This document shows positions 2,963 through 22,244 of a DNA stretch of 24,989 nucleotides, one piece after another. The stretch covers positions 1 to 24,989 of the IMG/VR virus record IMGVR_UViG_3300050030_000064. One strand, given 5' to 3'. The position numbers were made by a program, and so were the translations under genes. This DNA is from a virus. The notes below the pieces were generated by a model. It saw only the letters and a program-made list of their open reading frames with translations. It made no database searches and was not told where the DNA came from. Position 1 is the first letter of the stretch, and each line of letters begins with the position of its first letter.

Positions 2963-5900
2963 TTATTCTAATGACATTGAGGAAATACCGTCTTCATCCA
3001 AAGTTACATTAATCAAGTAATCTGGATTGATTTCATGCACCTGTTCGATGACCAAAGTTTTCTTCATACGTAATTTTATCATTTGTAGTATCTCAATAAA
3101 TTCTTCAACACTACCTTCCACGTCCAGTTTACCCATAACTTCATCAAGTAAGAACATCATTGGTTTGGCTTTTACATTGATTTGATTCAATGCAAACTTC
3201 AGTACAACACTTGCAAACGTTCTTTCTTTTCCGCTTGCTGAGATACAATCAATAATTGATGTAGGTCTGTTATTATATGCCAATTTTGGTCGTAGGTCAT
3301 CGGCATCGAGCCATACTTTAAACGGTGCAACAGACAAGATGTTCTCTAACGTCAAATTAATCTTAGGCAAAATATAATTGCTCAATATTTGTTTTGGAAT
3401 ACCTTCACGATGAACACACTTCTTATATAGTGTCATAATTGAATCTTGATATTCTTGTATCTTGAATTCAGCAATTAGCAATTCTAAATTTTTTATTTTT
3501 ATCGAATTTTCACCAATAGCTGTTTTTCTCAGATATACGTCTTCAGTAAATTCCTTTTCTTGACCTTCAAGTATAAGAATTTTTTCTTTTGCTGCGGTAA
3601 TACCTTTTTCGATGTTATGATTTTCTTCAATTTGCAATAAGCTATTATCATAACTGTCAATTTTTTGCTGAAGTATCGAAACTTGCAATTCGACATTCTG
3701 AATCTTTATTGGAATCTGGTCAAGTTCTGCTTGAAGTTCTTTACGTCTGTTGACATCGTTCATTTCATTGGTCAGAGTACCAATTTCTTTAAGTACTTCT
3801 TCCATTGCAAGAGCATCAGACTGAATAATTGTTTCAATACCAGCAATTTCAATTTTTTTAGCATTAATAACATCTTGAAATACCTTTTTATCGGCATTCT
3901 CTTTTGTTTTAATTTCTCCAGCAATTCTGAACATTTCTTTTTCCTTTTCAGCAATTGACTCTTCGATGTGTTTTAAGTGGTCGGGAACTATTTCTTGTTT
4001 ACATAATGGACAAATAGGATTTTCAGCATCTTTTCCTGCTTTTAATATCAATGCTTCCTTTTTTAGCGCAGCACCATCTTGCTTTAATCTGAAAATTTCA
4101 CCGTTGACAATTTCGATAGCATGTTCATTGTCTCTCATGACCTGCTCCAAAGTTTTGATTTCTAATTTTCTTCCATGCTCAATTGTTTTATGTAAATCTT
4201 TCTTTTCAAGCAATAGTTTCAGTCTTTCGGCATCATAAGTTTCTCTCAAACTTGCTATACTTGTTTCAAGAATGCCCTTACGTTGCTTGTGTTGCTTGAT
4301 ACTTTCGTTATGAATACCAATACTCTTCTTGACATCATCTACGCTTAAACCGTAAATTTCGGGGTCTATTTTAAATAATTTCTTTGTTAATGTTTCTACA
4401 TAGGTCCTACCTGTCTTAATTTTGTCCTGTACTTCGGGAATTTTAACTGTTTCGCAATCCAGAACTTCTGCATCAAGTAAAACATTATATTGAGTTAATG
4501 CCCGGATTTGTTCAGTAGACCTTTCTATATCGCAAGTAACTCTGGATTTTTCATTAGCTTTCTTCTGATATGCCTTTAGACCTTCGAGTTTCTTATCGAA
4601 GATATCCAAACCACTGTCATATAATAAAGAATCGATGAAAACAGCCATATCATTTGACAATATACGATTAAGCGTATCTGATGTTGTCATAACAACACGC
4701 ATGAAATTATCGTAACTACCAATAATAGCATCAATCTTTTCCTGTGTTTTATTTCTACGGTCTTCATCAAGTTTTTCCAATGCTGTATTAGCATCCATTA
4801 CTTCATCAGGATTTGAAAGTACGTAATAACTTAACGTAGTTGGCGCACCATTAATTTCACCCGATTTTGTACGAGTAATTTCAGTTTTTTTCTTAATACC
4901 GTAATATTCGCCATTGGCTTCCAATACAATATACGCATCACAATAATTTGCACCATTTCTGTTGTTGACAAAGCGTGAATCACCATACTTCATACGACTT
5001 TCGGTTTCCAATGCCTTGCCAAAAAGTACGTATGTTATGAGTTTCATTATTGTTGTCTTACCCGCAGTGTTTATTCCTGTAATCTGAAACAAGCCATCCA
5101 TATTACGCCAATCAATCTCAAGTTCATGATATGACATGAAGTTTGTGCCGCCAAATTTAATTATGTTCCATTCAATGTTTGAAATACCATCAACAGTAAT
5201 ATCTCTTGATATTTCTACGTCCAATGCAATAATATCGTCAATGAGTTGTTTGTCAGTGCCAATTTTTTCAAGATATTCACGAAATATTTCATGCTGAACA
5301 GCTTCATCCGTAATACTTTCCAACGTAACATTTTCATTTACGTCAATTTTATCAGACTCAATAAATTCATTTTTATGAGAAATAATTATGCTTTTATGTT
5401 TAGATTTAACATATTCGACTAATTTTCTTTCATTGTCTTTGGTTCTTGTCTGCGGAAGTGTGCCCCAGACAAACCTGATTCTCATATGCTTGGTGGGATT
5501 TAATATCTCGAAATCCAAGTCATCAAAATCAGTAAATGGAGTGATTTTGACGTTTTTGAATGACCAACTACTTTTAATTGAAATTAAGTCCGCTACTTTA
5601 TTCTCTACATCCCATAGTAAGTATCCGTGAAAGTTATCATCACCCTCAGTAACATCTTGTGCTATTAATGACCCACAATATGCTTTTGTTTGATGTTTAT
5701 CCAAGAATTGCATTCTATGTATGTCGCCAAAGAACGATAAATCGCCCTTGAAGTCTGAGAGTTTGTAATATGCTTTGCTTTTCATTTCAAAGCCTGTTGT
5801 AGATATACAGCCACCCACAGGGTCATGAAAAAGGTCAATAAAAGTAAATCCACTCTTACCTCTTTCAGCATCTATTTTTTTACCTTCTTTAGTTTTCCAC

Positions 5901-6307
5901 GGATTGTTCTTTTGGTCGCCATGATGCCAAACCGCCCACATAATGTCATCATCAATATGCATGCCTGTTCTGTCGTAATAAATAACATTGGGATTGTTCA
6001 GTGTTTTTACAATTGCACGTATAGAGTCTACACGCTTAAGATTTTTCTTTCTACAGTCATGATTTCCTCTCGTTATTCTGACAGGAGCAACCATTGCCAG
6101 TGCATTGAGTAAATCATGTGCCATAATTAGCTGTTCACCTTGTAAATCAAGATAATCGTGGACCAAATCACCAACAATTACTATTCTATCGGGTTTTTGT
6201 TTTCTAAGGGATTCTATTAGATTTAAAAATACTTCGTCATATTCTTCATTTCGTACAGGTACTTTTCTGATATGGATGTCAGCTAAATGAGCAATCTTTT
6301 TTATCAT
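2963..6307 (-). CDS. Fused SbcD-SbcC (Mre11-Rad50; T4 gp47-gp46-like) recombination nuclease/ATPase
   Basis: A single 1114-residue frame carries both subunits of the Mre11/Rad50 complex. Residues 1-about 270 are the nuclease: D10/H12, GD at 46-47, GNHD at 81-84, HH at 128-129 and GDIH at 194-197. Residues about 380-1114 are the SMC-like ATPase: Walker A at 411-419 (GINTAGKTT), two coiled-coil arms, zinc hook CPLC at 766-769, the signature region SASGKER at 1023-1029, Walker B at 1050-1056 ending in DE, and D-loop GKLD at 1059-1062. In T4 and E. coli these are separate genes. The complex processes double-strand ends for recombination-dependent replication and host DNA degradation. No stop or frameshift lies at the junction (about residues 270-380). 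A host-type promoter candidate lies 29-62 nt upstream of the ATG at 6307. Confidence 0.95.
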   Translation of the reverse strand: MIKKIAHLADIHIRKVPVRNEEYDEVFLNLIESLRKQKPDRIVIVGDLVHDYLDLQGEQLIMAHDLLNALAMVAPVRITRGNHDCRKKNLKRVDSIRAIVKTLNNPNVIYYDRTGMHIDDDIMWAVWHHGDQKNNPWKTKEGKKIDAERGKSGFTFIDLFHDPVGGCISTTGFEMKSKAYYKLSDFKGDLSFFGDIHRMQFLDKHQTKAYCGSLIAQDVTEGDDNFHGYLLWDVENKVADLISIKSSWSFKNVKITPFTDFDDLDFEILNPTKHMRIRFVWGTLPQTRTKDNERKLVEYVKSKHKSIIISHKNEFIESDKIDVNENVTLESITDEAVQHEIFREYLEKIGTDKQLIDDIIALDVEISRDITVDGISNIEWNIIKFGGTNFMSYHELEIDWRNMDGLFQITGINTAGKTTIMKLITYVLFGKALETESRMKYGDSRFVNNRNGANYCDAYIVLEANGEYYGIKKKTEITRTKSGEINGAPTTLSYYVLSNPDEVMDANTALEKLDEDRRNKTQEKIDAIIGSYDNFMRVVMTTSDTLNRILSNDMAVFIDSLLYDSGLDIFDKKLEGLKAYQKKANEKSRVTCDIERSTEQIRALTQYNVLLDAEVLDCETVKIPEVQDKIKTGRTYVETLTKKLFKIDPEIYGLSVDDVKKSIGIHNESIKQHKQRKGILETSIASLRETYDAERLKLLLEKKDLHKTIEHGRKLEIKTLEQVMRDNEHAIEIVNGEIFRLKQDGAALKKEALILKAGKDAENPICPLCKQEIVPDHLKHIEESIAEKEKEMFRIAGEIKTKENADKKVFQDVINAKKIEIAGIETIIQSDALAMEEVLKEIGTLTNEMNDVNRRKELQAELDQIPIKIQNVELQVSILQQKIDSYDNSLLQIEENHNIEKGITAAKEKILILEGQEKEFTEDVYLRKTAIGENSIKIKNLELLIAEFKIQEYQDSIMTLYKKCVHREGIPKQILSNYILPKINLTLENILSVAPFKVWLDADDLRPKLAYNNRPTSIIDCISASGKERTFASVVLKFALNQINVKAKPMMFLLDEVMGKLDVEGSVEEFIEILQMIKLRMKKTLVIEQVHEINPDYLINVTLDEDGISSMSLE

Positions 6308-6373: not shown

Positions 6374-7120
6374 TTATATTTTCTCTATAATCCACGAATT
6401 ACTTAATTTATTTCTTTTTATTTCATATTTTTTCAACAGTCTATAAAATGTTCTTAAATTCATATTTATTTTTTTTGCGGCAATTTTAATGGTAGACGAT
6501 GTATTTAATGCTTTAAGCATTGATGCAACCCTTTGAAATTCTAAATTAAATTCAACATTATTAACTTTTCTCAATATTGTACTACCGCCATAATTTTTAT
6601 TAAATAATATGCCAGTTCCATTATCTAATCTACCAAAATAATTAATAAACACTTGTTCAATATGATATGCATCGATTTCACTAATATTTTCAATCAACTT
6701 TGCACTACAAAAATCATTTGTTGATTTTAACTCATTAATATATTCCACTAAATTAATGTTTCTATTATTCATATCAGATATTCTACCATTTTTGCCTTTA
6801 CCAAAATATATTGGTTCGTAATATAAATGAAAATTACCAACTTTATTGTATATCTTTTTTCTCATATTATAATAAGCATAAACATAATAATTATTAATTG
6901 CGTGATTATTGTCAATTTTATCAATAATTATGGCATCTTCAATTTTCACTTCATTAATATAATTAATGTCAGTAATTTTAATTTTATAATTTTCTAATAA
7001 TGCTTCCTCAATCATATCATTCATACTAACCTCTTGGTTTTCATTTTTAGATAAAATTAATCTAATTTCTTCAAGTTTATTAAATAAACCATCTGATAGT
7101 TCATATACAATTTTTTTCAT
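6374..7120 (-). CDS. GIY-YIG family protein with N-terminal ribbon-helix-helix-like and C-terminal HTH regions
   Basis: 248 residues. The middle holds a GIY-YIG-like core: YVYAY at 79-83, YFGKG at 105-109, Arg113, and a helix with candidate catalytic Glu155 (HIEQVF), then a NYGG loop near 176-179. Residues 1-45 look like a ribbon-helix-helix segment (a short strand, then helices ending SMNDMIEEALLENY). Residues 210-231 look like a helix-turn-helix (IKIAAKKINMNLRTFYRLLKK, broken here as IKIAAKKINM and NLRTFYRLLKK). It differs from the other GIY-YIG genes here in having no WTKExC repeats. It has its own AGTATTTATA box 13 nt upstream. The gene sits between the recombination gene and the divergent Hsp20 gene. 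A free-standing homing endonuclease is most likely. Confidence 0.75.
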   Translation of the reverse strand: MKKIVYELSDGLFNKLEEIRLILSKNENQEVSMNDMIEEALLENYKIKITDINYINEVKIEDAIIIDKIDNNHAINNYYVYAYYNMRKKIYNKVGNFHLYYEPIYFGKGKNGRISDMNNRNINLVEYINELKSTNDFCSAKLIENISEIDAYHIEQVFINYFGRLDNGTGILFNKNYGGSTILRKVNNVEFNLEFQRVASMLKALNTSSTIKIAAKKINMNLRTFYRLLKKYEIKRNKLSNSWIIEKI

Positions 7121-7133
7121 ACTTAAAATTTTC

Positions 7134-7143
7134 TATAAATACT
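7134..7143 (-). promoter_or_regulatory. AGTATTTATA box upstream of the GIY-YIG gene at 7120
   Basis: An exact AGTATTTATA lies on the minus strand, 13 nt before the ATG, preceded by an AAAATT tract. The same box occurs upstream of five other genes in the window. Its position fits a -10-like element giving a very short leader. Confidence 0.5.
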
Positions 7144-7244: not shown

Positions 7245-7658
7245 ATGAAAATTATGTTACCCATTAGACCAAGTTTATTAATTACCAATATTTTTGATGA
7301 TATTTTTGACGTGAATCCATTTAAAGACCCGACAATTCAATGCCCGGTCCATGACGTTATTGAAAACGACAAAGAATTTATTATCGAAGTGATGTTAGCG
7401 GGGATAAAGAAAGAAGATGTCACTGTTAAAGTTGATAAAGACGTATTGAAAATCAAAGCAGTTCGTAAGGAAGTTAAAGACTTGAAATACAATCGTAAAG
7501 AATCGTTCACAGGGACATATAAAAGATTATTTGTTTTGTCAGAATTGGCTGATGTTGAAAATATTGGTGCTTCTTTTGAAGACGGAGTGTTAAAGGTTAC
7601 TGTGCCTAAACTCGAAAAAGAACCTGCACCTACAACGAAAGTTATTGAGATTAAGTAA
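7245..7658 (+). CDS. Small heat shock protein, Hsp20/alpha-crystallin family
   Basis: 137 residues, the usual length of a bacterial small heat shock protein. The alpha-crystallin domain covers about residues 35-125, with the pattern PVHDVIENDKEFIIEVMLAG for the first strands and the family signature GVLKVTVPK near residue 113. The C-terminus ends in the VIEIK tail that supplies the conserved I-x-I oligomerisation motif. These proteins hold unfolding proteins in an ATP-independent way; T4-like cyanophages also carry them, possibly for virion assembly. It is the only plus-strand gene in the window, is divergent from the GIY-YIG gene, and ends at a strong intrinsic terminator facing the convergent sigma-factor gene. 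This isolation suggests independent regulation. The second Met (residue 4) is an alternative start. Confidence 0.93.
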   Translation: MKIMLPIRPSLLITNIFDDIFDVNPFKDPTIQCPVHDVIENDKEFIIEVMLAGIKKEDVTVKVDKDVLKIKAVRKEVKDLKYNRKESFTGTYKRLFVLSELADVENIGASFEDGVLKVTVPKLEKEPAPTTKVIEIK

Positions 7659-7683: not shown

Positions 7684-7712
7684 AAGCGGTCACGAATTGT
7701 GACTGCTTTTTT
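7684..7712 (+). terminator. Intrinsic terminator of hsp20
   Basis: The stem AAGCGGTCAC / GTGACTGCTT (one G-T wobble) has a 5-nt loop and is followed by a run of T (7707-7712). It begins 26 nt after the Hsp20 stop and separates it from the convergent sigma-factor gene. On the minus strand no T-run follows the stem, so it is mainly a plus-strand terminator. Confidence 0.85.
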
Positions 7713-8361
7713 ATTCAAATACATCCTCTGGTAAAGATTTTTTAAGTTTAGTCTTGATGTAGTTAATTTTATTACTTACTGTACTACTTGTTAACTGAAA
7801 TTCGCTACCAATTTCCTTATAATCATAACCTTGAACATATTTCATATCAAGCAATGCATAATCGGATGGAGATATTTGTGACGAAATAAAACTGACTGCA
7901 TTAGCATTCTCGAAAGTACATGATGTTGAATTTACTGCAGTACCGTTATTTGAAACACTACACGTGCCATTACCGTTAGCATTATTTACAGTAAATGTAT
8001 TGTTGAAATAGCCACCTGCATTATAATTGCAGGAAGTCAACCTAATGTTTGCATTTGCAGGTAAAATGGTAGTACAGCACGTTGCTGTACATCGCCATTT
8101 ATCAATCATATAGTTTTTGCAGATACTCAGAACCCAAGATTTAAATTTAGATTTGTGTTCCTGGAATTCCTTGATGTTCATGAAGACTTTAATCAGTACT
8201 TCTGATACATCATCATCAATGTCGTAATACGTAGGATATTTACTGAGTATAAAATCTTTTACTATTTTTCTATAGCGTTTATAGAGTGTTTCTTGTGCTG
8301 TTTGATTCCCATCCAAAATATTTTGAATTAGAACTGTATCTTCTTGTTCCTTGCTTATCAT
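7711..8361 (-). CDS. ECF-like RNA polymerase sigma factor with an Asn/Cys-rich insert
   Basis: 216 residues from the ATG at 8361. A frame extension to 8394 exists but adds only an atypical hydrophobic stretch. Residues about 5-90 match sigma-70 region 2 of ECF factors (ILDGNQTAQETLYKRY, then DIDDDVSEVLIKVF, then FKSWVLSICKNYMIDKWR). Residues about 162-208 match region 4 (YALLDMKYVQGYDYKEIG, then an HTH with TSSTVSNKINYIKTKLKK). Between them, residues 91-160 are a low-complexity segment rich in Asn, Thr, Ser and Cys (Cys91, 95, 96, 111, 134, 148), unlike a normal ECF linker. The gene overlaps the primase end by 83 nt, so the two are probably translated together. It would redirect host RNA polymerase to phage promoters, a role T4 gives to gp55. 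Confidence 0.85.
   Translation of the reverse strand: MISKEQEDTVLIQNILDGNQTAQETLYKRYRKIVKDFILSKYPTYYDIDDDVSEVLIKVFMNIKEFQEHKSKFKSWVLSICKNYMIDKWRCTATCCTTILPANANIRLTSCNYNAGGYFNNTFTVNNANGNGTCSVSNNGTAVNSTSCTFENANAVSFISSQISPSDYALLDMKYVQGYDYKEIGSEFQLTSSTVSNKINYIKTKLKKSLPEDVFE
8015..8033. repeat. Inverted repeat inside the sigma-factor insert
   Basis: Six-base arms CCTGCA / TGCAGG with a 7-nt loop lie inside the DNA encoding the Asn/Cys-rich insert of the sigma factor. Together with the palindrome at 8072-8090 this marks the insert as structurally unusual DNA. Confidence 0.45.
8072..8090. repeat. Perfect 8-bp inverted repeat at the start of the sigma-factor insert
   Basis: Arms GTACAGCA / TGCTGTAC with a 3-nt loop sit exactly where the protein leaves conserved region 2 (after DKWR) and enters the low-complexity insert. 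The hairpin would form in the mRNA and might influence translation, or be a scar of an insertion event. Confidence 0.5.
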
Positions 8362-9358
8362 AGGGTTTTGCCAACTTATTAATAAAGTAATCATCCACAG
8401 TTAAACCCCTTGCACTACGTAGACTTTTAATTACTTCGCTAATACCTCTTTTTTTACGAAGTTCGTCCATGTCTTTCTCAAATGGAATTTTAACTATTTT
8501 GACCCTTTCTTCACAGCCTACATAAATATCGTGCAACATGTAATAAAGTTCAATTGCATTTTTGTAGGCATCCGGGTCTAACAATACAACTACATCAGGT
8601 TTCATTTCTTTCAGTTTTAAAAATAATGTGGTTGATATCGTCTTACCCAACATCGGAATGATGTTAACGGGAAATGACAGCATTTCAAACGCACCTTCAA
8701 CAAGGTATACAGTAGAGTCCCAATTTACAAACCCCTCATTAAAGATAATCCTGTCCTTATCGGACTTAGGGTTATCATAGGGGTGTTTTCTTTTATTTGC
8801 AATATCATAATTTCTTCCAACAAAGTAATTTACTTCGCCATTTTTATCATATGACGGTATAATTATCCGTTTTTCATATTTACCTGTAGTACAAAAACCA
8901 AGCCGATATTTTAAAATTATATCTCTTGATATCATTCTGTCATTAATCATGTAGTTATATGCATCAAAATGGTCTTGATTTAAAGCATCCATTTGACTAA
9001 ATAAAATCATTTCTTCAGGAAGTTTTACAGCAACATATTCCTTTTCATCACCTTCTTCATTCTCATAGTCGGGATAAATTGCCGCATATGATTTATAAAG
9101 GTCATAATCAATAGATGTTCCAAACATCCACACAAGTTTTTTCAGCGAACCACTAAACTTAGGTTCATCACACTTCCAACAACGAAATTTTCTTCTTGCC
9201 GTATTGATTTCGAGATTGAACTTTCCATCGGGATAAGCCAGACCCTCTCTTTCCTGACAATGAGGACAGTTAACCTGTATCTGCTCAGATTGTTGAAAGC
9301 CTTTAACATCGACAAAGATGTTCTGGACTATAGCGTGAAACTCTTGCCCCCGAATCAT
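8279..9358 (-). CDS. DNA primase with zinc-binding and TOPRIM domains
   Basis: 359 residues from the ATG at 9358. An in-frame upstream ATG (9388) lies inside the promoter and encodes a non-homologous leader, so it was rejected. A zinc-ribbon is visible: C31-x2-C34 (CPHC) and C60-x2-C63 (CWKC). The TOPRIM core has EG at 221-222 (LVEGAFEML) and the metal-binding DPD at 261-263 (VVVLLDPDAY). Bacterial DnaG and phage primases use this pair to recognise template and make RNA primers. It is shorter than DnaG (about 600 residues) and lacks a visible helicase-binding domain, as expected for a phage primase acting with a separate helicase. The end overlaps the sigma-factor start by 83 nt. The start codon is only 5 nt after a TATATTTG promoter element, implying an almost leaderless mRNA. 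Confidence 0.85.
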   Translation of the reverse strand: MIRGQEFHAIVQNIFVDVKGFQQSEQIQVNCPHCQEREGLAYPDGKFNLEINTARRKFRCWKCDEPKFSGSLKKLVWMFGTSIDYDLYKSYAAIYPDYENEEGDEKEYVAVKLPEEMILFSQMDALNQDHFDAYNYMINDRMISRDIILKYRLGFCTTGKYEKRIIIPSYDKNGEVNYFVGRNYDIANKRKHPYDNPKSDKDRIIFNEGFVNWDSTVYLVEGAFEMLSFPVNIIPMLGKTISTTLFLKLKEMKPDVVVLLDPDAYKNAIELYYMLHDIYVGCEERVKIVKIPFEKDMDELRKKRGISEVIKSLRSARGLTVDDYFINKLAKPYDKQGTRRYSSNSKYFGWESNSTRNTL

Positions 9359-9361
9359 AAC

Positions 9362-9394
9362 GACAAATATAAAAAAAATTTGCCACAAAACAAA
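9362..9394. repeat. 33-bp direct repeat, copy A (upstream of primase)
   Basis: It matches 11212-11244 at 32 of 33 positions, in the same orientation, 1850 bp apart. The segment holds the promoter core and the T-run. The two copies bracket the ten-repeat GIY-YIG gene exactly and are each placed just before a start codon. Confidence 0.85.
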
Positions 9395-9402: not shown

Positions 9403-11208
9403 TTACATATGCGAAGTAATTTCAATATAGAAACCATTTCTATCAGCAAAAGCAACGGCACTACTCGAATTTCTCCGAAAATCTACTTTTCTTTTATATT
9501 TTAATGCTTCTTCTTGGCATTTTTCTTTAGTCCAATAATTTCTTTTAAACTCAAAATGTGAGGTAATTTCATCAAGCCAACCATTTTTTTTAATGGCACT
9601 ATATGCACCAGAACAACCTCTCATAAAATCCACTTTTCTTTTATATTTTAATGCTTCTTCTTGGCATTTTTCTTTAGTCCAATAATTTCTTTTAAACTCA
9701 AAATGTGAGGTAATTTCATCAAGCCAACCATTTTTTTTAATGGCACTATATGCACCAGAACAACCTCTCATAAAATCCACTTTTCTTTTATATTTTAATG
9801 CTTCTTCTTGGCATCTTTTTTTTGTCCAATAATTAATAGGTTTAGTTATATATTTCATATGCATAGTAATTTCATCGTACCAACCATTTCTTTTAGCTGA
9901 TGCGGCAACACCGGGATGATTTTCCCAAAATTCTTTTCTTGACTTACATGTTAGTGCGATTTCACGGCACTTTTTTTTATCATATATATTTGTTGACATG
10001 TGCCCCGTTATTTCTTTATGCCATTTATGATTACAAACAGCACTATATGCTTTAGGACTATTCGTATAGAAATCTTTTCTTGTTTTATATTTTAATGCTT
10101 CCTGCCTACACATTTCAAATGTCCAAACCACCAGACCACCGCCCGTTTCGCCACCTCTTTTAATATTTAACATATTCCATCCATTCTCACGATATTTTTT
10201 TATGTACTCTTTTTCTAAATTAGCTGCATCATCAATGGGAATAAATTCTGTTAATTGTTTTATAGTGGGTTGTAATTTTGTTTCATTTATGTGTTTGGTA
10301 ACACCATCTTTTTTATTTGTTTTTCTACATAAATCTCTTTTTTTTAAATTATACGTTAAACCAATATAGGCAAAATTATCTGAAAATTCATACGCATATA
10401 CGCACCTAAATACCCAATTTCCAATTCTTTTAAAATGTGTGGTAATTTCATCAAGCCATCCATTTAAAGATGCCGAAGAATATGCGGATGAATGATTCTG
10501 ATAAAATTCTTTTCTTGTTTTACATTCTAATGCTTCTTCATAACATCTTTCTTTATTCCAATAATTAAGTGGTTTATTTCCTTCTGTCATGTGTGAACAC
10601 ACGACATCAAGTAAATTATTTTTTTGCGCATAATCATAGGCTCGATGCGAACCTTTAATAAAATCTGCTCTTGTATTGTATTTTAACGCTACATTTTGGC
10701 ATTTTTCTATTGTCCAATTTCTACTAACAAAATGAGAATTAATTTCATCATACCACCCATATTCTCTTGCAGCCCAATATGCACTCTTTTCATTTATAAT
10801 AAATTCATTTTTTGTTTTATACTTCAATGCAACCTCATAACACCTTTCTTTAGTCCAATATCCACTTGGTTTTTTTATTGGTATCATGTGAGCACATATT
10901 TCATCTAAAATACCCTTTCTTAATCCCCAATTATATGCACCATGACTGTTAGTACAAAATTCTGACCTTGATGTATATTTTAAGGCTTCAATATGACAGG
11001 TTTCTTTAGTCCAATGAATAGCTTTCGGTCTTAATCTTATCATATGTGAACAAATCTCATCATTCCATCCATTTTTAATTGATAATCGAGCTGCAGTTTT
11101 AGAGTATTGGCTAAATTCTTTTCTCGTGTTATATTTAAGTGCTTCTTCATGGCACTTTTCCTTAGTCCAATAATTTGGTGATTTACGTTTTGAGCATATT
11201 TTATTCAT
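9403..11208 (-). CDS. GIY-YIG endonuclease with ten helical repeats (putative homing endonuclease)
   Basis: 601 residues from the ATG at 11208; an earlier in-frame ATG (11262) lies in the terminator/promoter segment and was rejected. Five repeats of about 45-52 residues (1-260) precede a GIY-YIG core (about 266-358: VYAYEF, YIG at 281-283, Arg291, Glu332/Glu334, Gly-rich loop), and five more follow (about 360-601). Each repeat reads roughly W-T-K-E-x-C-x-E-E-A-L-K-Y-K-T-R-x-x-F, a variable stretch, then A-Y-x-x-A-x-x-N-G-W-x-D-E-I-x-x-H-M. Repeats 8 and 9 are identical over their cores because of a 147-bp DNA duplication. The same module occurs three times in the protein at 761-1567. I infer a homing endonuclease with array-like DNA-binding modules. 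It lies between the coiled-coil gene and the primase and has its own copy of the primase promoter. Confidence 0.85.
   Translation of the reverse strand: MNKICSKRKSPNYWTKEKCHEEALKYNTRKEFSQYSKTAARLSIKNGWNDEICSHMIRLRPKAIHWTKETCHIEALKYTSRSEFCTNSHGAYNWGLRKGILDEICAHMIPIKKPSGYWTKERCYEVALKYKTKNEFIINEKSAYWAAREYGWYDEINSHFVSRNWTIEKCQNVALKYNTRADFIKGSHRAYDYAQKNNLLDVVCSHMTEGNKPLNYWNKERCYEEALECKTRKEFYQNHSSAYSSASLNGWLDEITTHFKRIGNWVFRCVYAYEFSDNFAYIGLTYNLKKRDLCRKTNKKDGVTKHINETKLQPTIKQLTEFIPIDDAANLEKEYIKKYRENGWNMLNIKRGGETGGGLVVWTFEMCRQEALKYKTRKDFYTNSPKAYSAVCNHKWHKEITGHMSTNIYDKKKCREIALTCKSRKEFWENHPGVAASAKRNGWYDEITMHMKYITKPINYWTKKRCQEEALKYKRKVDFMRGCSGAYSAIKKNGWLDEITSHFEFKRNYWTKEKCQEEALKYKRKVDFMRGCSGAYSAIKKNGWLDEITSHFEFKRNYWTKEKCQEEALKYKRKVDFRRNSSSAVAFADRNGFYIEITSHM
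9485..9814. repeat. In-frame 147-bp tandem duplication within the endonuclease gene
   Basis: The sequence repeats exactly with a period of 147 bp (49 codons) over 330 bp, about 2.2 copies. Identity stops at 9485 on one side and 9814 on the other. Absence of any substitution between copies implies a recent event or ongoing homogenisation. Confidence 0.95.
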
Positions 11209-11211
11209 ACT

Positions 11212-11244
11212 GACAAATATAAAAAAAATTTGCCTCAAAACAAA
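11212..11244. repeat. 33-bp direct repeat, copy B (upstream of the ten-repeat endonuclease)
   Basis: 32 of 33 positions match 9362-9394. This copy is continuous with the left arm of an intrinsic terminator that the primase-side copy lacks, so copy B sits in the older context at the end of the preceding gene. Confidence 0.85.
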
Positions 11245-11246
11245 GG
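11214..11246 (-). promoter_or_regulatory. Bacteroidota-type promoter candidate for the ten-repeat endonuclease
   Basis: On the minus strand CCTTTG is followed by 19 nt and then TATATTTG, with the ATG at 11208 just 5 nt downstream. The -33 box lies in the loop/stem of the terminator hairpin, so terminator and promoter share DNA. Confidence 0.55.
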
Positions 11247-11259
11247 TTTTAAGGCAAAT
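11221..11259 (-). terminator. Intrinsic terminator downstream of the coiled-coil gene
   Basis: On the minus strand a 14-position stem (one mismatch; arms ATTTGCCT-T-AAAAC and GTTTT-G-AGGCAAAT) closes a 4-nt loop and is followed by eight T. It starts 18 nt after the stop of the gene at 11278. It is the strongest hairpin in the window and overlaps the next promoter. Confidence 0.85.
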
Positions 11260-11277
11260 CATATATATTAATCGAAA

Positions 11278-11820
11278 TTAGAATCTTTTTTCTTTCTGTA
11301 AGAACGGAAAATATACTATTAATCTGTTCAAGAAAGCAGGTGGAACAATTACAAAATTTGGTGTTCCATAAGGAGTAAGTCCAGGATTTTTCATATAATT
11401 TGACTGAATTTCATGGAATATTGTCAATATACCATTTTTCAGTTCACCATCATTCTGAACACCCGCACCGCTTTTAACACGTTGATTTTCATTAAGCATT
11501 TTTTGAAAATCAACTTTCATTACTTCTAATTCGCCTTTAAGTAATTGGTTTTCACTTGTAAGTGCAGCTACTTGTTCTTGAAGCCATATATCGCTACCCG
11601 TTGGTTCTTCTTCTACTTCAAGAAGGTCTTCTTTAGGTTTTGGTGTTAGAGTCAAATCAACATCACTGTCACTTAAGAGTTCTTTAACTACTTCTTTTGC
11701 TTTAATATCTCTTTCTTCTGCTGGAGTAAGTACTTTTTCTGGTACTACTTCTTTCTTGACAGGAGTAACTTTCTTTACTCCCTTTGCCAAATTAACTAAT
11801 TGCTTGGTACTTTTTGCCAT
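11278..11820 (-). CDS. Coiled-coil protein, unknown function
   Basis: 180 residues. The N-terminal third is Lys/Val/Pro/Glu-rich and probably disordered (KGVKKVTPVKKEVVPEKVL). Residues about 78-118 form a clear heptad-like coiled coil (WLQEQVAALTSENQLLKGEL and onward). The C-terminal about 60 residues are more globular, ending in a hydrophobic-aromatic segment (FLNRLIVYFPFLQKEKRF). No family is recognised. An AGTATTTATA box lies 24 nt before the ATG and a strong terminator follows, so it appears to be a single-gene unit. A scaffold, virion-internal or oligomeric accessory protein is conceivable; the promoter class it shares with virion genes slightly favours late expression. Confidence 0.75.
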   Translation of the reverse strand: MAKSTKQLVNLAKGVKKVTPVKKEVVPEKVLTPAEERDIKAKEVVKELLSDSDVDLTLTPKPKEDLLEVEEEPTGSDIWLQEQVAALTSENQLLKGELEVMKVDFQKMLNENQRVKSGAGVQNDGELKNGILTIFHEIQSNYMKNPGLTPYGTPNFVIVPPAFLNRLIVYFPFLQKEKRF

Positions 11821-11844: not shown

Positions 11845-11854
11845 TATAAATACT
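11845..11854 (-). promoter_or_regulatory. AGTATTTATA box upstream of the coiled-coil gene
   Basis: An exact AGTATTTATA lies on the minus strand, followed by G, 24 nt before the ATG at 11820 and just downstream of the preceding gene's terminator. That is the expected layout for an independent promoter. Confidence 0.55.
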
Positions 11855-11930: not shown

Positions 11931-13403
11931 TTACTTAATTATTAAGTTCGAATTTAGGTGTGCCATAAGACCTGCTTCATCATTCCAAATAAAACCTTCT
12001 CCGGCTTTAATTGCTCCGACAAATCCTTTTTTGTGATGCCATTCTTCTGTACCTGTGAGACTTGAAAGATATCTTACTGTAACACCTAAGTCTTCACTAA
12101 CAGTACGTTTTCTGTCAAGTATTGCATAGTTTACGTTACGCTTTCTATGTATGTGACCTAAATGCCATTCGTGATAAACTGTTTCGCTCCAATAAGGTTT
12201 TGCCTCAATATCCGTTGCCATAAGCATTGGTAATGAAACTTCTTTTTCTTCACCACCGTGGGTCAGACCAAGGAGAACCTTACCAAATTTATAATATTTC
12301 CTTGGAGAAGCACCATTATCTACACAAACCTGTGAATCTTGATTAAACCATGCTTCCAAGTATGCACCCATGTAATAACTACGTTCAAAGTCATGATTAC
12401 CCGGAATTACAACTACGTCAATGGGTACGCCAGTTTGTTTTAACATATTAATTGCATCAACAAGTAATCTCACGCCAACGTTGAAAGTTTTTTGCCAACG
12501 TAAATCTTCGTCTTGTGGTGTACCTTTGGTTGTTGTATTAAGGATTGTATCTGAGTTGAAAAAGTCATTACCTACGGGAAAAAGTATACGAGAATACTGA
12601 TATCCGCTTGCTCTCTGAATGAGTGTCTGCATTGTTGCTAAGAATCTCTGACGAGCAATTTTAACATCGTAGTTTTCAAATGTTTCACCGCCCCATGCGA
12701 GTTTACCGATGTGCAGGTCAAATATTGAAACTTCAAAAAGATTATTTTCGTCTGGTGTTTTAGGATATTCGGGAGTCCAATCAAGCACTGGTGGTACATA
12801 ATCTTGTACCATTTCAATAAATGCTTCACCGATTTTAGTTTCTCTGAAATAAACTTTATTTCTTCCAAGACGTGCTTTAACTTGGAAATTCTGAATAGTT
12901 ATTGGTTCGCCTGACTTCCATGAAGTAACATCCCATTTATTGACAATATAATCATTGACTTTCCAAAGTTCTAAGTCAACTTTACATACTTCAAGGAGTT
13001 CATCAAGAGTTTTAATGTGGTCGGGTGGATAGTTTTGATTCCATGTCCATTCAATTGTGGCTTCTTCACCATCGGGACTTCCAGAAATTGTAGTTTTTTC
13101 GCCTTCACTTATTTTAGGAAGGTCAACTGGTTTTTCTTTAGATTCTGTAATGTCGAGATTGATTTGTGCTGCTTTACCCTTACCACTTTCTTTATATTTG
13201 GCGTAGGCTGTATTAAACTTATCAAAAAGTTCTTCGGAGATTGCATCATTCTTATAAAGGTCAAGAACAATTGCTTTTACGTTCTTCACATAAGTGTAGT
13301 CAAATCCTTTACTTCTGGAAGCCTCTCTGACTGATATGTGATTTTCGATTGCATAATTAATGATTTCTACTGCTTTGTCTATTCGTTTGCCTTTTATTGA
13401 CAT
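11931..13403 (-). CDS. HTH-fused calcineurin-like metallophosphoesterase
   Basis: 490 residues. The N-terminal about 50 residues look like a helix-turn-helix (AVEIINYAIENHISVREASR, then a second helix near 36-46), followed by a charged linker. The catalytic domain covers about 222-470 with all metallophosphoesterase motifs: D-x-H at 229-231 (FDLHIGK), GND at 278-280, GNHD at 335-338, THG at 381-383 and GHIH at 416-419. Proteins of this layout occur in many phages and are annotated as DNA-binding phosphoesterases; a nuclease or phosphodiesterase acting on DNA is plausible, but the substrate is not known. It is separate from the SbcD-type nuclease at 2963-6307. It has a host-type promoter candidate upstream and an intrinsic terminator downstream, so it is a single-gene unit. 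Confidence 0.88.
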   Translation of the reverse strand: MSIKGKRIDKAVEIINYAIENHISVREASRSKGFDYTYVKNVKAIVLDLYKNDAISEELFDKFNTAYAKYKESGKGKAAQINLDITESKEKPVDLPKISEGEKTTISGSPDGEEATIEWTWNQNYPPDHIKTLDELLEVCKVDLELWKVNDYIVNKWDVTSWKSGEPITIQNFQVKARLGRNKVYFRETKIGEAFIEMVQDYVPPVLDWTPEYPKTPDENNLFEVSIFDLHIGKLAWGGETFENYDVKIARQRFLATMQTLIQRASGYQYSRILFPVGNDFFNSDTILNTTTKGTPQDEDLRWQKTFNVGVRLLVDAINMLKQTGVPIDVVVIPGNHDFERSYYMGAYLEAWFNQDSQVCVDNGASPRKYYKFGKVLLGLTHGGEEKEVSLPMLMATDIEAKPYWSETVYHEWHLGHIHRKRNVNYAILDRKRTVSEDLGVTVRYLSSLTGTEEWHHKKGFVGAIKAGEGFIWNDEAGLMAHLNSNLIIK

Positions 13404-13477: not shown

Positions 13478-13786
13478 TTATATAAATACATTTCCGTTTG
13501 CTTTAAGAAATACTATTGTCTCTTCGATTTTTCGGCACACTTCTTTAAATGCGACTTCTTCAGATATGGATAAGTCGAACCATTCACCTTCCTTATTAAA
13601 ATGGCTGTATCTACGTTGTAATGCATGCTCAATTTTATTGGCATGTTCGGTATGATATGTATCAATGAGTTTTAATGGCGATGCGTTGCCAGTCTGCAAT
13701 TGTTGCAATCTTTTGGTTGGATGCTTCGAAATTCCTATTTTATAATACCCGTTTTCTAATGATTGAATTAGATAAATATACTTCAT
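13478..13786 (-). CDS. Small GIY-YIG (T5orf172/Mug113-like) nuclease domain protein
   Basis: 102 residues from the ATG at 13786. A frame extension to 13855 lies wholly inside the upstream gene and was rejected. The motif string is YIYLI at 3-7, YKIGIS at 15-20, Arg26, QLQTGN near 29-34, and a helix with the catalytic-type Glu53 (KIEHAL), then GEWFDL near 67-72. This is the T5orf172/Mug113 branch of GIY-YIG nucleases. The ATG overlaps the TAA of the RuvC-like gene (TAATG), which implies coupled translation. That coupling, plus small size and lack of a DNA-binding module, suggests a housekeeping nuclease working with the RuvC-like enzyme rather than a homing endonuclease, though the latter is not excluded. 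Confidence 0.8.
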   Translation of the reverse strand: MKYIYLIQSLENGYYKIGISKHPTKRLQQLQTGNASPLKLIDTYHTEHANKIEHALQRRYSHFNKEGEWFDLSISEEVAFKEVCRKIEETIVFLKANGNVFI

Positions 13787-14417: not shown

Positions 14418-14657
14418 TTATTTTAATTCTACTCGCTCGCCAGTAACTCTGTTAACAATTACAGAACGTTCCTTTAGTTCGTCAATCATTTTTTGAAGAC
14501 TCTTAGGGTCATTAATATATAGTTTAATGAGGTCTTCAATAACACCACCAATTTTCATGCTTTTGCTTTTGCATAAACTTTTAAACTTGTTGTGAAGTTC
14601 TCCATCAATTATGACAGATTTTGGCTTAGTTTCTTCGTCCATGTACACTTTACCCAT
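14418..14657 (-). CDS. Small ribbon-helix-helix-like DNA-binding protein
   Basis: 79 residues. A short basic strand (PKSVIIDGE, about 12-20) is followed by two helices (LHNKFKSLCKSK and GGVIEDLIKLYI), the order seen in Arc/CopG ribbon-helix-helix repressors, then a charged C-terminal helix and strand. Such proteins dimerise and bind operator DNA. It is the first gene of the operon with the RuvC-like and small GIY-YIG nucleases and could regulate it. A second in-frame Met at residue 6 is an alternative start. An AGTATTTAT-type box lies 31 nt upstream. The family call rests on pattern only. Confidence 0.6.
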   Translation of the reverse strand: MGKVYMDEETKPKSVIIDGELHNKFKSLCKSKSMKIGGVIEDLIKLYINDPKSLQKMIDELKERSVIVNRVTGERVELK

Positions 14658-14688: not shown

Positions 14689-14698
14689 AATAAATACT
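14689..14698 (-). promoter_or_regulatory. AGTATTTATT box upstream of the ribbon-helix-helix operon
   Basis: Nine of ten positions match AGTATTTATA on the minus strand, 31 nt before the ATG at 14657. The intergenic gap is 84 nt, the expected room for a promoter after the virion block. Confidence 0.4.
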
Positions 14699-15466: not shown

Positions 15467-16807
15467 TTATACTGGTGGGCAGTATTGTACTATTGGATTA
15501 TTGCTGATAACATAATTTGGTAATGTCCATGACCTGTTTGATTTATATGACATTGCAAAAAGTAATTCTTGGTCTTCAATTACAAATATTTTTAAGTCGG
15601 TGAAAACTTTACCTACAATATTACCATCTGGGTCAGCCAAATCATAATATTCCAAATCTAATGATTTTGTTAATCCGGTTAATAGTTGTGGAGAACCAAT
15701 TGCTTTTAATGTAACGCCTAATGTAGTTCCTGTTGATTTATGCCACATAATTGTCGGGATGTTTAACACAGGTGTAGTTAAATAAAATCCTTCACCATAA
15801 ACATTAGCGGGTGATGGATTAGTATAATGAATTACACCAAGTTTTTTCAAAACAGGCGATTGATTCTGAATATAAGAAACAAAACCACCATATGTTCTAC
15901 TGTTAAATTGAGTAAATTTTCTATAAGTTGTTCCAGTTAAAATTCCCGCAATTTCATCAGTAAAAATAATGGTCATATTCCAAAATGGAAATATTACTGT
16001 AGGACACTGGCTATTATTTAAGAAAGTCAATACACTTTCGTCCATATAATCTGTCGGAGTATCGTTGAAAATCGTATTACCACTATAATTTATAAAATTA
16101 TAATAAACCATAGCACCTGCTCTTACAGTTGGTATACCGCCAAAGTCAGGTAATTCCCTGTCAACTTGAACGACAAGATTATTGTTTGCTAAAGAGCCTG
16201 ATGTAATTGCGCTGATTTGATAAAACAAATATGGCGTTGGCTGTAATGTGTTTCCCGAATATCCTATTGTATCGGCATTGAGTGTCCATTTAACTAAAAG
16301 TAAATCTCCTACTGCTGGCTCATTACCGCTTGTACCATATGTGGGTGCTTGAAATAAGTGTAATGCCGTACCGCCTTGAACTGTGTTCATATTTACCATT
16401 GCATCCGGCTGTTTAACGTGATTACTATCTACAATAAACGTGAAACTATTACCTGTTGTATTTGTAAAAAATCCAATTGGGTCAACGGGATTTGTAACAA
16501 TATATGTTGATTGTGGCACACTTGGTATAATGTTATATGGCGTACCCGATATATTTTTTGGTATGAATGATATTATTTGTGGATTTACATCTGCAGGTTG
16601 CAATATTGAAGAATAAAATGGTGTATAGCCAGATTGACCCAATGCTGTCATTTGGTCATTTACTTGAGAAGTAAAAGAATAGTCAATTTCGCTATCGCCA
16701 ATAGCAAAATAGCTAAAACTTAAACTACCTGTGGATAATTGTTCTCTACCACAAGTGGTTAATTTAATGTTTAATACTACAGGGTCTTTTTTATCAATAA
16801 ATCCCAT
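15467..16807 (-). CDS. Virion structural protein with a conserved N-terminal beta-sheet module
   Basis: 446 residues. The N-terminus (VVLNIKLTTCGREQLSTG, then SFSYFAIGDSEIDYSF) is a pattern I associate with structural proteins of Bacteroidota tailed phages. The rest is beta-rich, Thr/Gly/Pro/Asn-rich. It lies between the FN3-like adhesin and the 236-residue virion gene and has an exact AGTATTTATA box 16 nt upstream. The role, probably baseplate or tail-fibre connection, is inferred from neighbours. Confidence 0.65.
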   Translation of the reverse strand: MGFIDKKDPVVLNIKLTTCGREQLSTGSLSFSYFAIGDSEIDYSFTSQVNDQMTALGQSGYTPFYSSILQPADVNPQIISFIPKNISGTPYNIIPSVPQSTYIVTNPVDPIGFFTNTTGNSFTFIVDSNHVKQPDAMVNMNTVQGGTALHLFQAPTYGTSGNEPAVGDLLLVKWTLNADTIGYSGNTLQPTPYLFYQISAITSGSLANNNLVVQVDRELPDFGGIPTVRAGAMVYYNFINYSGNTIFNDTPTDYMDESVLTFLNNSQCPTVIFPFWNMTIIFTDEIAGILTGTTYRKFTQFNSRTYGGFVSYIQNQSPVLKKLGVIHYTNPSPANVYGEGFYLTTPVLNIPTIMWHKSTGTTLGVTLKAIGSPQLLTGLTKSLDLEYYDLADPDGNIVGKVFTDLKIFVIEDQELLFAMSYKSNRSWTLPNYVISNNPIVQYCPPV

Positions 16808-16823: not shown

Positions 16824-16833
16824 TATAAATACT
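16824..16833 (-). promoter_or_regulatory. AGTATTTATA box upstream of the 446-residue virion gene
   Basis: An exact match on the minus strand, 16 nt before the ATG at 16807, in a 39-nt intergenic gap. Confidence 0.5.
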
Positions 16834-16846
16834 AATAATAATAATT

Positions 16847-17794
16847 TTAAATTGTACAATCCAATAATGGCGTTGCATCAGTACCACCAGCAGTTGCTCT
16901 ATTGTTGCATTTTATATTTGCAATACCATTTACACCAGTAATAACAACAGAGTATCCACCGCTTGCAGTATTATAACTGCTATATTCAAGATTCCAACCG
17001 CCTCTGAACTTAACGTTGCCAACAACACTAATATTAGTAATTGTAGTATAGCCACTAATAAATTGACTATCGCTACCATTTGGTCCATGTGCGTATGACC
17101 ATATATCAGCTACTTGAGTCCATGTAATACCATCAGTAGTCATTTCTAACCAAGCGTGTCCTTGGCTTTGGTCACCTGGGTTTCCTGAACCAACATCACT
17201 GTTTGCATTAACATTATAATAGAAAGTAATTGAATATATATTGCCTGCAACATGATTATCTACTCCCATTATAACATTGTCATTTACTAAATCTACTGAA
17301 GCAAAATAAAGCTGTGATGGTGATAGTGTTATAAATGACACTTCATTACCATATGCAGTTCCTTGAGTATTTGTAGCATATGCACGAGTATAATATGTTG
17401 TATTTAAAGTCAATCCGCTTAACAAACTGCTGAATGAGCCAATTCCGCTACCATTGACAGTATGACAACCTGCAATAGTTGGATTTGGTGCAGTATTCCA
17501 AACACTACCACGTGCTGTAACACTTGCACCGCCATCAGAACTCACATTGCCACAACCCATTGCACTTATTTGCCCTATAGAAGTAACTGCAGAAGTACTA
17601 ATTGTTGGTAAATGAACTGGTGTTGCAGATGTTGCAATTTGTAGTGTATTGCCAAAATATTCTACACCACAGACAATCATATATGAACGATATTCATATA
17701 TGGTGCTTGCAGTTAAATTGGGAATTGTAAAATTGTAAGTAGTTCCTGTAATTGGTCCTGCAGTGAGTGATGTTGTTATCCAAGGTCCTGGCAT
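16847..17794 (-). CDS. Fibronectin-III-like tail adhesin
   Basis: 315 residues. Residues 1-60 look like the later strands of an FN3-like domain (ASTIYEYRSYMIVCGVEYFG). Residues about 66-158 form a complete Bacteroidota-style FN3-like domain (PTISTSAVTSIG, then SSDGGASVTARGSVWNTAPN, then LTLNTTYYTRAYATNTQGTA). A C-terminal beta-rich domain of about 150 residues follows, containing a GHAWLEMTTDGITWTQVADI segment that resembles a carbohydrate-binding jelly-roll. The last 20 residues hold two Cys. Such domains bind cell-surface glycans. The gene follows the large baseplate/tail gene and carries its own AGTATTTATA box. The abrupt start inside an FN3-like fold suggests it split from, or recombined with, a longer adhesin. 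Confidence 0.7.
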   Translation of the reverse strand: MPGPWITTSLTAGPITGTTYNFTIPNLTASTIYEYRSYMIVCGVEYFGNTLQIATSATPVHLPTISTSAVTSIGQISAMGCGNVSSDGGASVTARGSVWNTAPNPTIAGCHTVNGSGIGSFSSLLSGLTLNTTYYTRAYATNTQGTAYGNEVSFITLSPSQLYFASVDLVNDNVIMGVDNHVAGNIYSITFYYNVNANSDVGSGNPGDQSQGHAWLEMTTDGITWTQVADIWSYAHGPNGSDSQFISGYTTITNISVVGNVKFRGGWNLEYSSYNTASGGYSVVITGVNGIANIKCNNRATAGGTDATPLLDCTI

Positions 17795-17805
17795 TTTATT
17801 TTATT

Positions 17806-17815
17806 TATAAATACT
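17806..17815 (-). promoter_or_regulatory. AGTATTTATA box upstream of the FN3-like adhesin
   Basis: An exact match on the minus strand, 11 nt before the ATG at 17794, in a 26-nt intergenic gap. This is the closest spacing seen for the box. Confidence 0.5.
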
Positions 17816-17820
17816 TAATA

Positions 17821-20800
17821 TTATACTTCAATTATTGGTCCAAGTGGCGGTGTACATGTGCTACATGTTTGCGCATATACTGACATCATGTATGGATATT
17901 CACCAAGACAGAAGCAACCATTACCGCTTACAACACTAAAAATTGCTACTGATGCACTACTTGACGTTCCAATTATTGTTTCGGCTCTTGCACATGCAAA
18001 TGCATTAAATACATCACCATAATGAACAGTAAAGGGACCCCATGTACCTGTACAATTTAATGCTCCTTTTGAACCACAACTGCAACTACCAACAGTAAAT
18101 CCATTACATGTAAGTTCAACAGAAACCAATTCTGGCGCACATGAAGTAATTGGTTTTCGCATGTTCCAATTAAATGTTGTATTGTATGTTTCACCTGCTG
18201 ACATTGGAGGTTGGGTAGCCAATGCACCTATACTAAATGCGCATAATTCACAACTATAACCACCTTCACAGCATAAGAAATTTACTGCTTTATATGGCGA
18301 TACGCCACATGCTTGATTAACTGTAACATATTTTGTTGAACCAGTCAATGGTGTATAACATACAATACCCGACCTTGCTACACCAATATTTACACAAGCA
18401 GTAATTTGACTCAGTGCTCCTGTTGGTGAAGGAGTGCCATGATTTGATGGCAATGTTAAAATCCAAGGAACACTACATGTCACAGTATAACAATTCCATG
18501 AATCGCCAGTTATATAAACGCATTGTGTTGCTCCGCTATTAAGAACATTTAAAACAATTGGATTCACTTGAATGCTATAAGTTACTGCGCTGAGTACTCT
18601 ATATTGCATTCCATACCAGCTTGCACTGCTTCCACCTGTTATTGCAATGCCACCACTATTAATTGTGGTTGCACTTGCAGTACCTAATTTAGTAAATAAT
18701 CCCGGAATAATTGGTGTTGCCAATGTAGTTCCACTGTAAAGTTGTCCAAGTGCAAAATTTGGTCCGGACAATACAAATGCTTGATACGTATATGTGGTGT
18801 TTTCTAATAAACCATTTATCGACATACTGTAATTATCTACAGTCGGTGCACCAAGTTCTGATACGCATGACCACGGGTCTAATTGATTACACCTATACTG
18901 TACTCCATATGATGTAAGAAGATTGTAGTTTTGTATATTCATACCACCAGTATTAATAATACTACCGATTCCAGTCGTACCAGATATAGTATCAACATAG
19001 AATGTTGGTGGTATGGGTTGCGGTTGCTGTACTTGTTGATGAATCATAAACATACTGCCATCATCGCCCAAATATTGAACAATCGGCATATTTCTCATGT
19101 CAATTGTAGTAGAATTACCAGAGTAAAGATTTACACCCCTTTTATACATAAATTTTTGCTTGGTGAAGACCGTATTTCTAATCAATAAGCCACCCTGTCT
19201 TAATATAATTGTTGCAGACAGCAATTCATCAACAAATTTTTGAAAGAATGAATTGTATTTGCTCAAGAAAGGATATAAGTTTTCAAAAGTATAGCCGTTT
19301 GAGTGTAATGGGTCATTTTCGGGCAATAAACTTCTTTTAAGATACTGCATATAAACATTAAGCAATGCTGGATACCAGCCGCCCTTATAATCTGAAACAA
19401 TTTTTCTTGTTCTTACGTTAATCAATTTTCTTTGAATTAATTCGATAAATTCGAGAAACGATAATTTACTTATATCACCTACGCCAAAAACATCACTTAT
19501 AATTGGATTAAAATATGAACTTTGTGCCACAAGATAATATACGCTTATTACTGAACCATATCTAATACCGCTTGGCAAAAATACTTCGTATTTATTCAAT
19601 ACATTTATGTCATAATCTTTATATGGTTCTAATGCAATACCATCTACAAGTACCTTGATGTCAGATGCTTGATTTGCCCTATAATTCATTTTATAGACGT
19701 ACTTGTTTGCTGAGACATTGAAATAAACTTTACCTGAGTTAAAGCTATCTACCCTTACAACTTCACTACGTGCATTTATTTCATTACTACCTAAGACATG
19801 AACATATGCCACTTGTATATTAGGTTCTGCTGCGAGATATGCAATAATTTCTGGATTCTGAATGATAATATTACTCTGACCGCTTATTGAATTATTTGGG
19901 TCAACAATATAGTCAGCAACAAATTGTGGTGTACCTTTTGTTAAGGCAATACCATTGATTGTTACCTGTACATCACCACGTGGATAACTTGGCAATGGAA
20001 TTGTTGTTCCAATTAAATTCGGCTTGATTCTTGTTACAATATATTCAACAGTAATTCCAGTAACTGGATGGCTACCACCTGAATAAATAAATGTTGCTTG
20101 AATAACATCCCTTCGGTTTCCCAAATTTTGTGCATAATTACCGTTTAGTATAGTAAAGCTATTACCTGTAACACTATAATCTGCATGCGATAAATCATTA
20201 TATATTGGACCAGTAGCACCGCTATATTCTGTCGGTGCATTTAATAAAATACCATTAAAACGAACTTCCAGAGTACCTTCGGTTTTATTATATGGTGTAG
20301 GAAGTGTAAATGTGTTTTGTGCACCAGTATAGCCTAAAGATACGTTAATATATGAATAAGGCAGAGTATATCCGCTTGAATTAGCGGGAAAATCTACCGT
20401 ATTAATATAGTTATAAACATCATATTCAATACCCCTTGCAGTGTCAAGTGCAACATCAACTTCTTTGGTATTCAATACCAATTTACTGTCTTGCTGAACA
20501 TACTGTGGAGTATCATAATGAATTCTTGTTGTTGCTCCCGTCTGTATCCAAGATTTTTTGTTATCAACGATTTGTGTAAGACTAAATCCTGCCTTACGAA
20601 AGTTATTCATGTATGCTTGTCCACTATCGGTGTCACCACTAATTTGAAAATAAAAAGTTGGTGATTCTATCGGTGCTTTGGGATATCCACTATTATCGTA
20701 TGGCAGAGAATTATTTGGAAAATCTGCTGTGGTGAATGGTACTGTATTTGGATTGATTTTTCCTCCAACAGTATATACGTATTCGGTTATATTGATGAAA

Positions 20801-22234: not shown

Positions 22235-22244
22235 TATAAATACG
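22235..22244 (-). promoter_or_regulatory. CGTATTTATA box upstream of the 1465-residue tail gene
   Basis: Nine of ten positions match AGTATTTATA on the minus strand, followed by G, 16 nt before the GTG start and immediately after the preceding terminator's T-run. The terminator-then-box order matches that at 11845-11914. Confidence 0.55.

Follow-up and report, generated by a model that had tools for sequence, protein, structure and literature searches.

The window analysed here, a virus fragment of 24,989 bases from IMG/VR, encodes a phage sigma factor of the ECF family (sigma1, 216 aa), as judged from profile and model comparison. Sigma1 is a core gene in a clade of uncultured T4-core phages. 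Throughout this clade, the genomes carry what their sequences define as a single-element, non-host promoter class (box1, AGTATTTATA in its exact form), which is interpreted as the late promoter of virion genes. The chance that sigma1 is the factor reading box1 is put at about even. The promoter grammar around sigma1 is regarded as a more valuable result than the sigma factor itself. It would provide a readable transcription programme for widespread uncultured giant phages, in which early promoters of host type are joined by an ECF class and by a late box that marks virion genes even without a recognised protein family. No earlier description of the box or of the promoter grammar was found in a limited search of the literature.

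Sigma1, its operon and its distribution

Sigma1 is encoded at 7711..8361 on the minus strand and was identified by Pfam, PHROG and PDB profile matches, by its AF2 fold and by 55 orthologous loci. These data substantiate the first-pass annotation, which had described an ECF sigma factor with regions 2 and 4 at this position. Against Pfam, the protein matches Sigma70_r2 at 4.8e-10 (39.5 bits; cut-off 24), Sigma70_ECF at 9.8e-6 and Sigma70_r4_2 at 1.3e-4, the last being under Pfam's own cut-off; the PHROG match is the sigma family phrog_1740 (1.6e-19). The nearest solved relative is SigW, to which a profile of 14 orthologues aligns over nearly the full length (11-198; 1.9e-10). Because of this full-length match and the Foldseek matches of the AF2 model to ECF sigma factors in the PDB, region 4 was accepted despite its sub-cut-off Pfam score. 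A longer reading frame extending to 8394 and overlapping the primase was ruled out as the sigma1 gene, since several relatives have an in-frame stop directly before the aligned methionine.

The AF2 model (mean pLDDT 67) consists of two helical domains flanking a disordered linker. Region 2 (8089..8286, minus strand), the part predicted to recognise the -10 element, was delimited by the Sigma70_r2 match and by alignment to SigW and the sigmaE/SigW chimera 5or5; it lies within 2-3 A of sigmaE region 2 in the model, and its loop EFQEHKSKFKSW aligns with the similar SigW loop FDINRKFSTW. The linker between regions 2 and 4 (7903..8088, minus strand) is rich in Asn, Thr, Ser and Cys and hypervariable, with 8-62% identity among orthologues compared to 32-89% for region 2; residues 90-153 have a pLDDT below 50 and are predicted to be disordered. 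The region 4 helix-turn-helix (7738..7857, minus strand) was placed by profile match and alignment, and its recognition helix TSSTVSNKINYIKTKLKK is kept even in the most divergent members. Identities range from 54 to 89% in region 2 and from 62 to 90% in region 4, with 32% and 46%, respectively, in the most distant member.

With region 2, the region 4 helix-turn-helix, a variable linker and neither region 1 (1.1/1.2) nor region 3, sigma1 resembles the ECF sigma factors SigW and sigmaE (PDB 5wuq, 1or7). It differs from them in the size and composition of the linker (about 60 aa, Asn/Ser/Thr/Cys), in a non-canonical region 4 helix and in a candidate promoter devoid of a -35 element. In the alignment, the canonical ECF signature P-x-GTVK is missing from the sigma1 region 4 helix (TSSTVSNKINYIKTKL) and present in SigW and in a second sigma factor of the same phages (sigma2, see below). 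The pairing of P-x-GTVK with an AAC -35 element, which is usual for ECF sigma factors but not strictly defining, is thus not seen in sigma1 and box1.

Sigma1 is the second gene of an operon headed by a DnaG-type primase (8279..9358, minus strand; phrog_47, 2.2e-30), which overlaps the sigma1 start in an order conserved in the relatives. Directly before the primase lies a Bacteroidota-type host promoter, TTTG-N19-TATATTTG (9364..9394, minus strand), which overlaps a terminator-like hairpin and T run. TATATTTG is found at the same spot in all nine genomes compared, with a strict TTTG at -33 in seven of them; the TTTG is usually located about 19-23 nt upstream of TATATTTG. This promoter fits the TAnnTTTG class of flavobacterial sigma-A promoters (PMC9723704), so that the operon is probably expressed early. 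The proposed co-expression of primase and sigma1 from a host-like promoter is thereby corroborated, and the placement of sigma1 among the early genes appears probable.

Between the primase and a 180-aa gene, the window contains a GIY-YIG/repeat gene (9403-11262; phrog_20046, 9.9e-117) seen in none of the relatives inspected. It comes with a separate copy of the primase promoter (11244-11214, minus strand) and of the start region (RQIFFIFVSM against WQIFFIFVVM), as if the insertion had duplicated the primase promoter.

In total, 55 sigma1 loci with 29-82% identity were retrieved from IMG/VR by tblastn, on contigs of up to 372 kb, and no relative was obtained among 50,697 phage records searched in the same way. 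A dozen related contigs were compared, each in full or mostly. Except for the cited GenBank records, all contigs are metagenomic and may be incomplete, which makes absences from them weak evidence. The proteins encoded next to sigma1 point to the jumbo phages PAU, PTm1 and MA9V, to immuto and Mel-JY01 and to metagenomic phages of 484-735 kb, many of these phages having Bacteroidota hosts. The sigma1 relatives encode a T4-type TerL, a gp20 portal, a prohead protease and gp23 capsid homologues. A phage multisubunit RNA polymerase was rejected, as no Rpb2-type subunit was matched in the nine contigs searched. Ribosomal protein S21, which occurs in Bacteroidetes phages (PMC9723584), was not found by a crude residue-pattern search.

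A single-box promoter class ahead of virion genes

Four exact copies of AGTATTTATA are present in the window, all of them on the gene strand and no more than 60 nt ahead of the start of a gene (P about 2e-7). They are located on the minus strand at 7134..7143 (13 nt before gene 6374-7120), 11845..11854 (24 nt before gene 11278-11820, whose equivalent in the related contig G1 also has box1), 16824..16833 (16 nt before gene 15467-16807) and 17806..17815 (11 nt before gene 16847-17794). Three variants occur on the same strand: TGTATTTATA at 13481..13490, 77 nt before an exonuclease gene (11931-13403) and in the corresponding position in G1, G8 and G11; AGTATTTATT at 14689..14698, 31 nt before gene 14418-14657; and CGTATTTATA, one base off, at 22235..22244, 16 nt before a gene for 1465 aa with a GTG start (17821-22218). 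The first-pass annotation had placed the box upstream of the genes starting at 17794, 22218 and 11820, which is exact for the copies at 17806 and 11845, whereas the copy at 22235 is the one-base variant.

Across eight contigs, 284 of 408 copies of GTATTTATA are sense-strand copies immediately ahead of genes, in a compartment that makes up 3.6% of the sequence. In an unbiased 9-mer test, AGTATTTAT/GTATTTATA was the leading upstream 9-mer in nearly all contigs; in G9 box1 ranks second, the ECF class being just as strong in that contig. Sense copies outnumber antisense copies in G1 (67/12), G4 (88/20), G8 (57/9), G5 (52/10), G12 (78/18) and the 371-kb contig G030 (53/14). Chance occurrence in AT-rich sequence was rejected on this strand bias, the upstream concentration, the 9-mer ranking and the P value in the window. 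An identity with the T4 box TATAAATA was likewise rejected, since the gene strand reads GTATTTATA and TATAAATA is not enriched there.

When 506 box1 sites were stacked, one -10-type element emerged, aGTATTTATAnnAAA, together with a weak A/T-only tract centred 13 nt ahead of the first A and an A-rich presumed start site downstream; neither a -35 element nor an AAC was present in the stack. If the AAA is the start site, box1 would lie at about -12 to -5. There is a strong preference for the G of the box (G 470 times, other bases 132 times), and an ECF-type promoter class of the same phages shares both the GTAT core and, in the same register, the A/T tract. The distance from box1 to the ATG has its mode at 13-16 nt, with some copies 30-78 nt upstream. 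Box1 is found on a minority of genes only, where it almost completely excludes other promoter classes. Terminator-like hairpins are five times commoner ahead of boxes than ahead of other gene starts (34/346 versus 46/2354).

The genes behind box1 include TerL (5/5), the portal (5/5, with two copies of the box) and baseplate-assembly genes (7/8). The box lies about 14-16 nt ahead of terminase, baseplate and other virion genes and about 22 nt ahead of the portal; in G1 it also precedes tail-fibre, head-decoration and baseplate-hub genes, and the prohead protease has the variant CTATTTATA. Several large virion-like genes of the window are preceded by box1 as well. We infer that box1 is the late promoter of virion genes, and the earlier description of a non-host promoter class before such genes holds for terminase, portal, baseplate, tail-fibre and head-decoration genes.

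Further sigma factors and candidate readers of box1

Three more sigma-like genes are encoded in the same genomes outside the window. Sigma2, with about 190 aa, is an ECF sigma factor of canonical type, region 4 included (SigW, 5.3e-24). For the gp55-like s3, with about 115 aa, the match is to the T4 late sigma factor family, phrog_234 (5.6e-9). The third, s4, is a conserved region 2 protein of gp55-like type and about 250 aa, which the clade's near-complete genomes encode. Its matches to Sigma70_r2 are weak (1.6e-4 in G029, 6.7e-4 in G020, 0.006 in LR756508), as is the profile comparison with gp55 (hhalign, 27% probability); an s4 HMM matches the sigma1 proteins at 1e-4 to 1e-3. The AF2 model of s4 was too poor to use and gave no significant Foldseek match. 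At loci L167, L172, L174, L197, L201-L203 and L208, the s4 match spans 1.0-1.1 kb, longer than expected for about 250 aa, so that in some phages an insertion or intron may be present within the gene.

The ECF-type promoter class reads TGTAAC-N16 (164 sites) or N17 (40 sites)-CGTA and occurs in all large sigma1 contigs, even in G11, G10 and G5, where sigma2 was not found. Among the genes behind it are rIIA and those for a helicase, a methylase and a DNA polymerase-like protein. Its sites are concentrated just downstream of the sigma2 gene in G004, G008 and G021, and a site lies upstream of sigma2 itself in G1. The class was assigned to sigma2, which would thus head its own regulon. Arrays of genes, many of them with their own ECF promoters, extend 3' of sigma2 at 293-308 kb in G004, 186-205 kb in G008 and 34-43 kb in G021. 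CTTGCAT and TAAACCA, which were enriched and considered as a further sigma1 promoter class, were rejected as parts of host-type and sigma2-class promoters.

Sigma1 and box1 occur together in every genome tested (23/23 sigma1 loci, down to 29% identity). In LR756508, immuto, Mel-JY01, PAU and LR756501, no convincing sigma1 was found and the upstream count of GTATTTATA is 0; three of these phages have s4 homologues. The co-occurrence of sigma factor and box across related genomes, which had been suggested as a check, thus turned out as predicted. The loss of the GTVK signature from sigma1 region 4 parallels the lack of AAC in box1. ECF sigma factors are reported to need a -35 element, a -10 element and a rigid spacing between them (PMC6411747), and given this stringency the missing -35 element counts against sigma1 as the reader. 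Within the clade, sigma1, s4 and box1 are always found together, so that co-occurrence and sequence alone cannot separate sigma1 from s4.

If sigma1 reads box1, the host RNA polymerase with the host sigma-A would transcribe primase and sigma1 after infection. Sigma1 would then bind the host core polymerase and steer it to box1. There, region 2 would recognise the -10 element of GTAT type, and region 4, no longer endowed with the canonical ECF specificity for AAC at -35, would do no more than sense the A/T tract, which lies some 12-15 bp ahead of the box. In this way the genes for terminase, portal, baseplate, tail fibres and head would be switched on, while sigma2 would run the separate early or middle class TGTAAC-N16/17-CGTAT. 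All three promoter classes would likely be served by the host polymerase, with sigma1 responsible for the late one. The wider proposal, that an ECF sigma factor without -35 recognition reads the one-box element aGTATTTATAnnAAA on the host polymerase and takes the role of gp55 in late transcription of a T4-core jumbo-phage clade, beside sigma2 with its classical regulon, is plausible but held more tentatively than the reading of box1 by sigma1 as such.

Box1 might instead be a T4-type late promoter read by s4, possibly together with the shorter s3, in which case sigma1 would serve another early or middle class or help otherwise; this is possible, with a lower probability than reading by sigma1. 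A single -10-type box with no -35 element is the gp55 style (T4 machinery: PMC7892883), and the T4 late sigma match of s3, the Sigma70_r2 matches of s4 and its presence in the near-complete genomes, together with the s4 HMM matches to sigma1, are in line with such a role. Moreover, the conservation of s4 is on a level with that of the virion genes (77-83% between most members, 60% to G030), whereas sigma1 evolves much faster (54-70%, 30% to G030) with the box unchanged, and immuto has an s4 homologue, a single-box class of its own (TTCnTATATTTAGg) and no ECF sigma factor that could be found. This is countered by the s4 homologues outside the clade that occur without GTATTTATA (immuto, Mel-JY01 and LR756508), by the poor model and weak gp55 score of s4, and by the preferred G and the A/T tract of box1, which are ECF-like rather than T4-like. 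The ATATTTATA k-mer of immuto and Mel-JY01, at one point taken as box1 and as an argument against sigma1, was dropped, since motif fitting gave the different box TTCnTATATTTAGg in immuto and no clear motif in Mel-JY01.

It is improbable that sigma1 reads the bipartite class TGTAAC-N16/17-CGTAT of early and middle genes instead of box1. The likeness of sigma1 to SigW, whose promoters are of the bipartite ECF type, would fit, as would the presence of the class in the contigs in which sigma2 was not found. However, both the clustering of these sites around the sigma2 gene and the canonical region 4 of sigma2 point to the latter. In G030 the strict -35 element is rare (3 sites) and ACGTATAA persists, yet the sigma1 recognition helix is conserved, and some sigma1 contigs, which are fragments, contain little of the class (1 site in G026, 2 in G013, 4 in G007). 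Least probable is that box1 is a leader element which signals translation or processing rather than a promoter. Translation in Bacteroidota uses A-rich leaders, which was counted for this reading, as was the short and fairly fixed distance to the ATG. It is contradicted by the restriction of box1 to a minority of genes, the copies 30-78 nt upstream, the excess of terminators ahead of the box, its -10-like shape with an A-rich start position and the near-total exclusion of other promoter classes.

Comparison with known systems and other genes of the window

If sigma1 reads box1, the system would resemble T4 gp55/gp33/gp45 in that a phage factor redirects the host polymerase to late promoters made of one box near position -10. 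The targets would be T4-core virion genes in both cases (gp20 portal, terminase). A one-box promoter before virion genes, as in the T4 late system, was also found here, as a likeness and not as membership; the boxes themselves differ (TATAAATA in T4, GTATTTAT here). Sigma1 stands outside the gp55 family, having no phrog_234 match. The earlier suggestion of a system analogous to T4 gp55 but of another family therefore stands as far as the family is concerned; it overlooked the genuine gp55-like factors s3 and s4 which these phages encode beside sigma1. Reading of box1 by sigma1 would mean that evolution had arrived at the T4 late switch by a second route, and an ECF sigma factor working without a -35 element would be a clear exception to the understood behaviour of the family.

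The sigma factors of crAss-like and huge phages annotated as 'sigma-W' (phrog_1740) are also phage ECF sigma factors and belong to the same PHROG as sigma1, but were retrieved in tblastn by sigma2 and not by sigma1. No TGTAAC-N16/17-CGTA site was found in the crAss-like NC_055873, NC_055894, NC_055872 and NC_055898 or in LR756502, hence their sigma2-like ECF sigma factors must read something else. The host ECF class of Flavobacterium has a CGT -10 element, as does the phage ECF class, and box1 has no counterpart resembling it among the six host motifs in their published description (PMC9723704). Immuto (NC_055915) and PAU (NC_019521) show strong one-box upstream motifs of their own, TTCnTATATTTAGg and TTAGTAcnAT, respectively, suggesting lineage-specific phage promoters.

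Among the remaining genes of the window, an Hsp20 small heat-shock gene (7245-7658; PF00011, 2.1e-20) is the only one called on the plus strand. A single-chain fusion of Mre11 and Rad50 (SbcD-SbcC; 1114 aa) is encoded at 2963-6307 on the minus strand, and a host-type promoter, CCTTGCATT...TATATTTG, lies upstream of it (6307) in the window and in the relatives. Genes of mobile type, a phrog_20046 member and an HNH/homing endonuclease, are located at 761-1567 and 24051-24758.
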